NCBI GenBank assembly: GCA_945910005.1 | Contig: OX246738.1 | Span: 21,957,686 to 22,021,685 of the forward strand | DNA from: Isoperla grammatica | Taxonomy: Eukaryota; Arthropoda; Insecta; Plecoptera; Perlodidae | Direction: 5' to 3' | DNA length: 64,000 bases | Shown: one piece after another, positions 58,663-63,638 of the stretch | Layout of the letters: each line of letters starts with the position of its first letter | How positions within the stretch are numbered: position 1 is the stretch's first letter | The notes under the pieces: model-generated | The model's input: the letters and a program-made list of their open reading frames with translations, nothing else | Told to the model about the DNA's origin: nothing | Databases searched by the model: none | Program-made: the position numbers and the translations under genes

Positions 58663-61600
58663 CTGCAAGCAACACACCACACATGTTACACCTATATGTC
58701 AGCCTCTCCACAGCGTGATGGGTCACACCGGCAGTGCCGCGACCCAGCTCGTCTCCGATGTCGTAGTAGTCCTCGTAGGGTTTGCTCTTGGGCTTGATGT
58801 CGCGGCCCTTGCTGCAAGCAACACACCACACATGTTACACCTATATGTCAGCCTCTCCACAGCGTGATGGGTCACACCGGCAGTGCCGCGACCCAGCTCG
58901 TCTCCGATGTCGTAGTAGTCCTCGTAGGGTTTGCTCTTGGGCTTGATGTCGCGGCCCTTGCTGCAAGCAACACACCACACATGTTACACCTATATGTCAG
59001 CCTCTCCACAGCGTGATGGGTCACACCGGCAGTGCCGCGACCCAGCTCGTCTCCGATGTCGTAGTAGTCCTCGTAGGGTTTGCTCTTGGGCTTGATGTCG
59101 CGGCCCTTGCTGCAAGCAACACACCACACATGTTACACCTATATGTCAGCCTCTCCACAGCGTGATGGGTCACACCGGCAGTGCCGCGACCCAGCTCGTC
59201 TCCGATGTCGTAGTAGTCCTCGTAGGGTTTGCTCTTGGGCTTGATGTCGCGGCCCTTGCTGCAAGCAACACACCACACATGTTACACCTATATGTCAGCC
59301 TCTCCACAGCGTGATGGGTCACACCGGCAGTGCCGCGACCCAGCTCGTCTCCGATGTCGTAGTAGTCCTCGTAGGGTTTGCTCTTGGGCTTGATGTCGCG
59401 GCCCTTGCTGCAAGCAACACACCACACATGTTACACCTATATGTCAGCCTCTCCACAGCGTGATGGGTCACACCGGCAGTGCCGCGACCCAGCTCGTCTC
59501 CGATGTCGTAGTAGTCCTCGTAGGGTTTGCTCTTGGGCTTGATGTCGCGGCCCTTGCTGCAAGCAACACACCACACATGTTACACCTATATGTCAGCCTC
59601 TCCACAGCGTGATGGGTCACACCGGCAGTGCCGCGACCCAGCTCGTCTCCGATGTCGTAGTAGTCCTCGTAGGGTTTGCTCTTGGGCTTGATGTCGCGGC
59701 CCTTGCTGCAAGCAACACACCACACATGTTACACCTATATGTCAGCCTCTCCACAGCGTGATGGGTCACACCGGCAGTGCCGCGACCCAGCTCGTCTCCG
59801 ATGTCGTAGTAGTCCTCGTAGGGTTTGCTCTTGGGCTTGATGTCGCGGCCCTTGCTGCAAGCAACACACCACACATGTTACACCTATATGTCAGCCCCTC
59901 CACAGCGTGATGGGTCACACCGGCAGTGCCGCGACCCAGCTCGTCTCCGATGTCGTAGTTGTCCTCGTAGGGTTTGCTCTTGGGCTTGATGTCGCGGCCC
60001 TTGCTGCAAGCAACACACCACACATGTTACACCTATATGTCAGCCTCTCCACAGCGTGATGGGTCACACCGGCAGTGCCGCGACCCAGCTCGTCTCCGAT
60101 GTCGTAGTTGTCCTCGTAGGGTTTGCTCTTGGGCTTGATGTCGCGGCCCTTGCTGCAAGCAACACACCACACATGTTACACCTATATGTCAGCCTCTCCA
60201 CAGCGTGATGGGTCACACCGGCAGTGCCGCGACCCAGCTCGTCTCCGATGTCGTAGTAGTCCTCGTAGGGTTTGCTCTTGGGCTTGATGTCGCGGCCCTT
60301 GCTGCAAGCAACACACCACACATGTTACACCTATATGTCAGCCTCTCCACAGCGTGATGGGTCACACCGGCAGTGCCGCGACCCAGCTCGTCTCCGATGT
60401 CGTAGTTGTCCTCGTAGGGTTTGCTCTTGGGCTTGATGTCGCGGCCCTTGCTGCAAGCAACACACCACACATGTTACACCTATATGTCAGCCTCTCCACA
60501 GCGTGATGGGTCACACCGGCAGTGCCGCGACCCAGCTCGTCTCCGATGTCGTAGTAGTCCTCGTAGGGTTTGCTCTTGGGCTTGATGTCGCGGCCCTTGC
60601 TGCAAGCAACACACCACACATGTTACACCTATATGTCAGCCTCTCCACAGCGTGATGGGTCACACCGGCAGTGCCGCGACCCAGCTCGTCTCCGATGTCG
60701 TAGTAGTCCTCGTAGGGTTTGCTCTTGGGCTTGATGTCGCGGCCCTTGCTGCAAGCAACACACCACACATGTTACACCTATATGTCAGCCCCTCCACAGC
60801 GTGATGGGTCACACCGGCAGTGCCGCGACCCAGCTCGTCTCCGATGTCGTAGTAGTCCTCGTAGGGTTTGCTCTTGGGCTTGATGTCGCGGCCCTTGCTG
60901 CAAGCAACACACCACACATGTTACACCTATATGTCAGCCTCTCCACAGCGTGAGGGGTCACACCGGCAGTGCCGCGACCCAGCTCGTCTCCGATGTCGTA
61001 GTAGTCCTCGTAGGGTTTGCTCTTGGGCTTGATGTCGCGGCCCTTGCTGCAAGCAACACACCACACATGTTACACCTATATGTCAGCCCCTCCACAGCGT
61101 GATGGGTCACACCGGCAGTGCCGCGACCCAGCTCGTCTCCGATGTCGTAGTAGTCCTCGTAGGGTTTGCTCTTGGGCTTGATGTCGCGGCCCTTGCTGCA
61201 AGCAACACACCACACATGTTACACCTATATGTCAGCCTCTCCACAGCGTGATGGGTCACACCGGCAGTGCCGCGACCCAGCTCGTCTCCGATGTCGTAGT
61301 AGTCCTCGTAGGGTTTGCTCTTGGGCTTGATGTCGCGGCCCTTGCTGCAAGCAACACACCACACATGTTACACCTATATGTCAGCCTCTCCACAGCGTGA
61401 TGGGTCACACCGGCAGTGCCGCGACCCAGCTCGTCTCCGATGTCGTAGTAGTCCTCGTAGGGTTTGCTCTTGTGCTTGATGTCGCGGCCCTTGCTGCAAG
61501 CAACACACCACACATGTTACACCTATATGTCAGCCTCTCCACAGCGTGATGGGTCACACCGGCAGTGCCGCGACCCAGCTCGTCTCCGATGTCGTAGTAG

Positions 61601-63638
61601 TCCTCGTAGGGTTTGCTCTTGGGCTTGATGTCGCGGCCCTTGCTGCAAGCAACACACCACACATGTTACACCTATATGTCAGCCTCTCCACAGCGTGATG
61701 GGTCACACCGGCAGTGCCGCGACCCAGCTCGTCTCCGATGTCGTAGTAGTCCTCGTAGGGTTTGCTCTTGGGCTTGATGTCGCGGCCCTTGCTGCAAGCA
61801 ACACACCACACATGTTACACCTATATGTCAGCCTCTCCACAGCGTGATGGGTCACACCGGCAGTGCCGCGACCCAGCTCGTCTCCGATGTCGTAGTAGTC
61901 CTCGTAGGGTTTGCTCTTGGGCTTGATGTCGCGGCCCTTGCTGCAAGCAACACACCACACATGTTACACCTATATGTCAGCCTCTCCACAGCGTGATGGG
62001 TCACACCGGCAGTGCCGCGACCCAGCTCGTCTCCGATGTCGTAGTAGTCCTCGTAGGGTTTGCTCTTGGGCTTGATGTCGCGGCCCTTGCTGCAAGCAAC
62101 ACACCACACATGTTACACCTATATGTCAGCCTCTCCACAGCGTGATGGGTCACACCGGCAGTGCCGCGACCCAGCTCGTCTCCGATGTCGTAGTAGTCCT
62201 CGTAGGGTTTGCTCTTGGGCTTGATGTCGCGGCCCTTGCTGCAAGCAACACACCACACATGTTACACCTATATGTCAGCCTCTCCACAGCGTGATGGGTC
62301 ACACCGGCAGTGCCGCGACCCAGCTCGTCTCCGATGTCGTAGTAGTCCTCGTAGGGTTTGCTCTTGGGCTTGATGTCGCGGCCCTTGCTGCAAGCAACAC
62401 ACCACACATGTTACACCTATATGTCAGCCTCTCCACAGCGTGATGGGTCACACCGGCAGTGCCGCGACCCAGCTCGTCTCCGATGTCGTAGTAGTCCTCG
62501 TAGGGTTTGCTCTTGGGCTTGATGTCGCGGCCCTTGCTGCAAGCAACACACCACACATGTTACACCTATATGTCAGCCTCTCCACAGCGTGATGGGTCAC
62601 ACCGGCAGTGCCGCGACCCAGCTCGTCTCCGATGTCGTAGTAGTCCTCGTAGGGTTTGCTCTTGGGCTTGATGTCGCGGCCCTTGCTGCAAGCAACACAC
62701 CACACATGTTACACCTATATGTCAGCCTCTCCACAGCGTGATGGGTCACACCGGCAGTGCCGCGACCCAGCTCGTCTCCGATGTCGTAGTAGTCCTCGTA
62801 GGGTTTGCTCTTGTGCTTGATGTCGCGGCCCTTGCTGCAAGCAACACACCACACATGTTACACCTATATGTCAGCCTCTCCACAGCGTGATGGGTCACAC
62901 CGGCAGTGCCGCGACCCAGCTCGTCTCCGATGTCGTAGTAGTCCTCGTAGGGTTTGCTCTTGGGCTTGATGTCGCGGCCCTTGCTGCAAGCAACACACCA
63001 CACATGTTACACCTATATGTCAGCCTCTCCACAGCGTGATGGGTCACACCGGCAGTGCCGCGACCCAGCTCGTCTCCGATGTCGTAGTAGTCCTCGTAGG
63101 GTTTGCTCTTGGGCTTGATGTCGCGGCCCTTGCTGCAAGCAACACACCACACATGTTACACCTATATGTCAGCCTCTCCACAGCGTGATGGGTCACACCG
63201 GCAGTGCCGCGACCCAGCTCGTCTCCGATGTCGTAGTAGTCCTCGTAGGGTTTGCTCTTGGGCTTGATGTCGCGGCCCTTGCTGCAAGCAACACACCACA
63301 CATGTTACACCTATATGTCAGCCTCTCCACAGCGTGATGGGTCACACCGGCAGTGCCGCGACCCAGCTCGTCTCCGATGTCGTAGTAGTCCTCGTAGGGT
63401 TTGCTCTTGGGCTTGATGTCGCGGCCCTTGCTGCAAGCAACACACCACACATGTTACACCTATATGTCAGCCTCTCCACAGCGTGATGGGTCACACCGGC
63501 AGTGCCGCGACCCAGCTCGTCTCCGATGTCGTAGTAGTCCTCGTAGGGTTTGCTCTTGGGCTTGATGTCGCGGCCCTTGCTGCAAGCAACACACCACACA
63601 TGTTACACCTATATGCGGCCCCTCAGCCTCTCCACAGC
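58663..63638 (-). repeat. 149-bp tandem array of a partial kinase exon with its splice acceptor, 33 extra copies
   Basis: The acceptor word CTTGCAG|CAAGGGCC (minus strand) recurs every 149 bp from the real exon start (58662) to 63579: 34 occurrences, one genuine and 33 extra. Each unit has about 37 bp of intron (with acceptor) and the first 112 bp of exon 58390-58662, up to GAGAGGCTGA. The exon copy then runs back into intron. 149 is not a multiple of three, so reading on from any copy shifts frame and stops within the next unit. Copies differ by only a few point changes. The array ends at about 63638 with a truncated unit. It is intronic, upstream of the real exon. Confidence 0.96.

Follow-up and report, generated by a model that had tools for sequence, protein, structure and literature searches.

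Which of 34 equivalent splice acceptors, lined up ahead of a single exon, does a gene use, and what kind of array presents them? The question is raised by a stretch of 64,000 nucleotides of the Isoperla grammatica assembly (the window), in which the start of a kinase exon, together with the intron end that precedes it, is repeated in tandem on the minus strand.

The 149-bp array and the gene around it

The minus-strand gene was identified as obscurin/Unc-89. It encodes a first kinase (PK1) of the obscurin type and, after it, another kinase; Ig and FN3 pieces are also present. This agrees with the original prediction of a kinase exon in a giant muscle gene. The kinase part matched obscurin 8ak2 with an E value of 3.2e-115 (172/278 residues identical), and PK1 was 62% identical to Drosophila, a value within the arthropod range given in the available portion of PMC10129394. 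When ten pieces were submitted to Pfam at E 0.001, seven gave matches (five kinase pieces, one I-set, and one fn3) and three gave none; exon A, which follows the array, matched Pkinase with 49.6 bits, and the match of the exon E kinase piece was below the curated cut-off. A six-exon model comprising the Ig end and PK1 was open over 350 codons. Its exons and the features next to them are listed here (numbers beyond 64000 refer to the extended sequence, i.e., the window plus 60 kb upstream).

65148-64982, minus strand: upstream (Ig) exon, about 1 kb beyond the window in the same assembly, read on the extended sequence
63616..63641, minus strand: outer array edge, 7 nt plus a 19-bp piece of the exon part
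58663..63615, minus strand: focal acceptor array, 33 surplus 149-bp units plus the genuine copy's own 37-nt intron end (TRF, acceptor anchor spacing)
58390..58662, minus strand: exon A of PK1, genuine, 273 nt, phase 2 at both ends
56962..58389, minus strand: U12-type intron, donor GTATCCTTT at 58389, branch site TTCCTTGAC at 56981-56973, 11 nt ahead of exon B
56823..56961, minus strand: exon B of PK1
55019..55124, minus strand: exon C of PK1
53640..53794, minus strand: exon D of PK1
52672..52748, minus strand: decayed single copy of an exon E segment, located before exon E (77 bp, 97% identical, spacing 137), in which an acceptor was looked for and not found
52438..52649, minus strand: exon E of PK1

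The upstream exon ends with TACAG|GTAAGC, a good donor in phase 2, compatible with AG|C AAG of exon A. Between the two exons lies an intron of 6319 nt (64981-58663), and the array (63641-58663, 4979 nt) accounts for 79% of it.

Tandem repeat analysis of the window with TRF returned a period of 149 bp, 34.0 copies, and 99% matches at 58549-63615. The acceptor anchor has 34 occurrences, each exactly 149 nt from the next, corresponding to the genuine acceptor at 58662 and 33 surplus acceptors at 58811..63579, and the AG was intact in all 34. Each unit consists of 37 nt of intron, including the acceptor AG, and the first 112 nt of the exon. The predicted composition of 33 surplus units ahead of an intact exon was thus confirmed, as was the identity of the surplus acceptors, which do not differ at any of the 37 intron nucleotides; the array end, placed earlier at 63638, had to be moved to 63641 to include the 7 nt and the 19-bp exon piece. 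The copy number is that of one assembly. Compared with their consensus, the surplus units showed 10 differences in 33 x 149 nt. One was the outermost base, and the other nine fell at four exon positions: 44 (three units), 107 (three), 21 (two), and 93 (one). Variants at positions 44 and 107 occurred both separately and jointly, a pattern that fits exchange between units (or recurrent mutation). The genuine copy differed from the array consensus at two sites, both silent (GGC/GGA and CTT/CTG). A chance origin of the array is ruled out. The possibility that the unit belongs to a genome-wide satellite was unsupported, since a 401-bp query (exon plus unit) produced at least 16 matches in the whole 874-Mb assembly, all of them inside the focal array.

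When the frame was taken from the upstream exon, only one of the 34 acceptors, the last, stayed open as far as the exon A donor. The six surplus acceptors whose translations were inspected led to a stop after 79 residues, in line with the premature stop that had been expected from every acceptor except the last. The predicted exon length is 273 nt from 58662 and between 422 and 5190 nt from the surplus acceptors.

Introns of the U12 type have the donor consensus RTATCCTT and the branch site consensus TTCCTTRAC shortly before the acceptor, and both are present in the intron after exon A. In the window, the two motifs occur two and one times, respectively, on the minus strand, and three and two times on the plus strand. 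At the end of the exon, 12 of 14 aligned relatives have ELYP, the residues expected if GTATCC is conserved; the exceptions are P0003, with ELCP, and P0012, which stops short of this point. In P0027 and P0030 the sequence continues here with no intron. Judged by these signals, the downstream boundary of the array-preceded exon is of the minor-spliceosome type.

Several further searches were made around the array. The motif AGGCTGA, present at duplication joints, had four minus-strand and two plus-strand copies outside the array, about the chance level by our own arithmetic. No known RNA family or tRNA was matched above threshold in the window. When other assemblies were searched with the read-through ORF, one of 10 candidates yielded a protein (82% over 45%); this relative lacks the array. 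We also considered whether the unit junction is what remains of a true 29-nt intron. The two are unlikely to share an origin: compared with the unit, the upstream exon end, CTCACTTACAG|GTAAGC, has a different nucleotide at each of the three third positions and a different intron sequence, whereas exon A and the array units differ at 2/112 sites.

Sister arrays in obscurin and in myosin genes

TRF was applied to the window and to 60 kb upstream; array edges were set by reading, and the site counts given below include the genuine site.

75392-79909, obscurin: acceptor array, 101-bp unit, 45 sites
82634-84032, obscurin: acceptor array, 42/60-bp unit, 29 sites
110164-110681, obscurin: acceptor array, 81-bp unit, 6 sites
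86808-88145, obscurin: donor array, 78-bp unit, 17 sites
54532..55032, minus strand: donor array, ~74-bp units with the exon C end and donor GTATGAGC, seven donors, the first genuine
39721-40129 of the window: tandem array, 67 bp x 6.1, no exon edge recognised
36004-36299 of the window: tandem array, 145 bp x 2.0, no exon edge recognised

Together with the focal array, obscurin therefore has four acceptor arrays and two donor arrays at exon boundaries: one conserved exon comes after 33 surplus acceptors, another after 44, and another before 16 surplus donors. The arrays at 99836, 113111, and 115899 in the obscurin region, like the one at 39721, straddle no recognised exon edge. Acceptor and donor arrays alike have the intact exon at their near edge; in every case, a rule centred on the exon would therefore select the correct site. 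Unit lengths of the arrays read in this genome ranged from 42 to 155 bp.

Myosin genes were used as a second set. A PF00063 search of the assembly gave 85 matches, and 20 stretches of 10 kb were taken around most of them, with some places on C8, C1, and C5 omitted. The stretches were chosen by match, though a threefold match in stretch L018 had been noticed beforehand. By reading, seven of 17 merged TRF arrays (period of at least 40) straddle an exon edge and the other 10 do not. The seven are located in six of the 20 stretches: five at acceptors (L018, L029, L030, L036, and L037) and two at donors (L024 and L037).

Two features of these loci were noted alongside. One muscle myosin gene (L035 1045-5397, C1:33475044-33479396) contains six relay exons, four of them nearly identical; they represent mutually exclusive exons or else recent copies. 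Clusters of relay exons are predicted outside chordates in the accessible part of PMC3912159. Both the relay exons, with the caveat of recent copying, and the PK1 identity to Drosophila speak for an arthropod and against a lancelet host, a question that PDB matches of two myosin exons did not decide. One myosin locus (L024/L025, C12:8752014-8770522) has six tandem arrays in less than 20 kb, of which one straddles an exon donor; the six include an array with an 82-bp unit that continues for 3.7 kb across both stretches.

The concentration of arrays at splice junctions was evaluated against random placement. For obscurin, we used the 39.0-123.6 kb region, merged TRF rows with a period of at least 40, and an approximate exon list, some of whose edges had been read beside arrays; the exon E pair, unlisted by TRF, was excluded. 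Six of 10 arrays straddle an exon edge, as compared to 0.72 expected when one unit is dropped at random (P 2.5e-5), and the result held when the exon number was doubled at random (P 7e-4). After removal of the focal array, the count was 5/9 (P 1e-4; 0.003 with doubled exons). The 42-bp array is counted through a last copy added by eye; with TRF's own edges, the count was 5/10 (P 4e-4; 0.007 with doubled exons). For the myosins, an automatic count that knows Pfam match edges only gave 4/17 against 1.37 expected (P 0.04; 0.24 with doubled exons), while the non-blind count by reading, 7/17, compared with 2.55 for doubled exons (P 0.008). Thus, arrays are strongly concentrated at splice junctions in obscurin and modestly so in the myosin set, and plain chance does not explain this.

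Across 13 arrays, 164 of 165 splice dinucleotides were intact (the 13 genuine sites included), while ~5 broken ones would be expected from the flanks, where 73 mismatches were counted in 4442 letters. The sole exception is a surplus acceptor in L036, with AG changed to AC. There is no sign of surplus splice sites being removed. The slight excess of intact surplus sites is a weak hint, as the copies are not independent.

Choice among the acceptors

The reading that we favor, at a probability of roughly 0.7, is that the array is a passively tolerated "mirage" minisatellite and that the last acceptor is chosen by exon definition. We classify it as a mirage by its anatomy; undisturbed splicing and length instability are properties reported for lancelet mirages. 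The unit spans an intron-exon boundary, the authentic exon is intact at one edge of the array, and both acceptor and donor boundaries are represented (four and two arrays in obscurin, five and two in the myosins). The copies were amplified and homogenised, amplification presumably proceeding by unequal exchange. Sites would be paired by the splicing machinery over the 273 nt of the exon, and the acceptor closest to exon A's own U12-type donor would be the one used. The array would then be removed as part of the intron, and the protein would be affected little or not at all. Exclusive use of 58662 is what this reading predicts.

The mirage reading is supported by the exact 149-bp spacing of the 34 sites, the pattern of variants at positions 44 and 107, the 350-codon six-exon frame in phase, the sister arrays in obscurin, the 7/17 myosin arrays at exon edges, and the like anatomy of lancelet mirages. 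Three observations count against it. The intactness of 164/165 dinucleotides is not what a purely neutral mirage predicts, but the copies are not independent. The arrays are concentrated at splice junctions beyond what plain chance accounts for. In human genes, the upstream of two acceptors is preferred overall, and with short introns; in long introns this preference is reduced, though not seen reversed in the portion of PMC9225289 available. In favor of the mirage reading, the same source reports that human long introns favor the sites closest to each other across the exon. The likeness to our case lies in long introns and competing sites of equal strength, while the difference is that the human data concern site pairs, and here 34 identical acceptors, read from the DNA, face a U12-type donor.

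The original prediction had left a choice between a passive accident and a splicing-based dial on expression. The passive option fits better with the sister arrays, the open gene, the myosin arrays, and the lancelet mirages, and nothing found here supports the dial. In the latter scheme, some transcripts would enter surplus acceptors, hit a stop, and decay, so that the copy number tunes obscurin output. The identity of the 33 acceptors over 37 nt of intron, the stop after 79 residues from all six surplus acceptors inspected, and the preservation of surplus splice sites would fit such a dial, but one gene would then carry several dials, and lancelet mirages are described as silent in splicing in the accessible parts of PMC3087553 and PMC3902484. 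We regard the dial as improbable. An inflated copy number, with few real units behind it, appears slightly less probable still: one lancelet mirage was aberrantly assembled in a draft genome (PMC3087553, as excerpted), and our copy number is drawn from a single assembly, but inner variants are located in particular units, arrays with other periods and copy numbers are found at other splice sites, and the array lies on a 115 Mb contig.

Productive use of the units themselves is very improbable. At the unit junction, TATAG|GTGTAA offers a cryptic donor that would define 120-nt exons adding 40 residues each and keeping the frame; the 120 nt are open, and the junction reads LTYS, as does the true upstream exon end. 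This donor scores 3.5 bits, in contrast to 6.3-10.7 for 10 donors of this genome (the same donors from which the score was built), and neighboring units would leave 29-nt introns; sterically, only splicing that skips a unit would be easy. Least probable of all is that the locus is a decayed obscurin copy in which the array was free to grow. Besides the array itself, nothing was found in favor of a dead gene; a frame open across six exons with U2- and U12-type signals and a genuine copy that differs from the array at silent sites only speak against it.

As to how such arrays arise, it is possible, if rather unlikely, that splice junctions are hot spots for tandem duplication, where a process tied to transcription or splicing repeatedly seeds arrays whose surplus sites are kept. 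Such seeding might come, for instance, from RNA-guided repair or from splice-site breaks or R-loops, in an arthropod host as in lancelets. If this is true, the genome is a standing experiment on exon recognition and intron origin.

Lancelet mirages and the position of the intron

Mirages have been described in the lancelet genes for Adh3, the globins BflGb6 and BflGb9, troponin C, and PGBD5 (PMC3087553, PMC3902484, as excerpted). In BflGb6, acceptor units of 150-160 bp vary in array length, and RT-PCR indicated undisturbed splicing (PMC3087553); the Adh, TnC, and PGBD5 mirages were likewise reported not to disturb splicing, and the PGBD5 copies were termed imperfect by their own paper (PMC3902484). 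The stonefly arrays share with them, as far as the excerpts describe, a tandem repeat over an intron-exon boundary, on the acceptor or the donor side, with an intact exon at the edge. Unit lengths are 10-160 bp in lancelets and 42-155 bp here. Copy numbers differ, with up to 45 sites here versus six and three units in two BflGb6 haplotypes. The hosts also differ, being an arthropod and a lancelet, and splicing and length instability were examined in lancelets, while DNA was read here. Within our partial coverage of the literature, mirages under that name were found in lancelets only (PMC3087553, PMC3902484). What is new, the mirage type itself being known from lancelets, is their presence in an arthropod, in large numbers and sizes, concentrated at splice junctions. 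If splicing proves normal, the obscurin arrays would be strong evidence from nature that splice sites are recognised across the exon, and not by taking the first acceptor encountered; mirages would also be extended from lancelets to arthropods. Their concentration at junctions makes the origin of mirages and of new introns testable genome-wide.

Introns can be created or shifted when sequence carrying splice signals is duplicated in tandem, according to the available parts of PMC2891723 and PMC2812944 and a model in PMC3087553, and the lancelet work proposes that mirages give rise to new introns (PMC3087553). Our locus resembles these cases in having duplicated splice signals and an intron at LTY-S|K, and differs in that it bears no direct trace of the array having made this intron. 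Relatives were compared as protein predictions. P0033-P0036 have no break at the LTY-S|K position of the array intron; 40 residues further on, at LTG, they lose the obscurin frame or terminate, at a point that the exon of the window reads through; P0016 and similar relatives begin at LTG. The majority of aligned relatives read through both positions. Since relatives differ at LTY-S|K and LTG, an intron was gained, lost, or moved near the array.

The window also contains long ORFs at 13637-14839, 21641-24662, 31675-33029, and 46853-47770, the last one inside the obscurin gene; they resemble transposase and reverse-transcriptase pieces of transposable elements.
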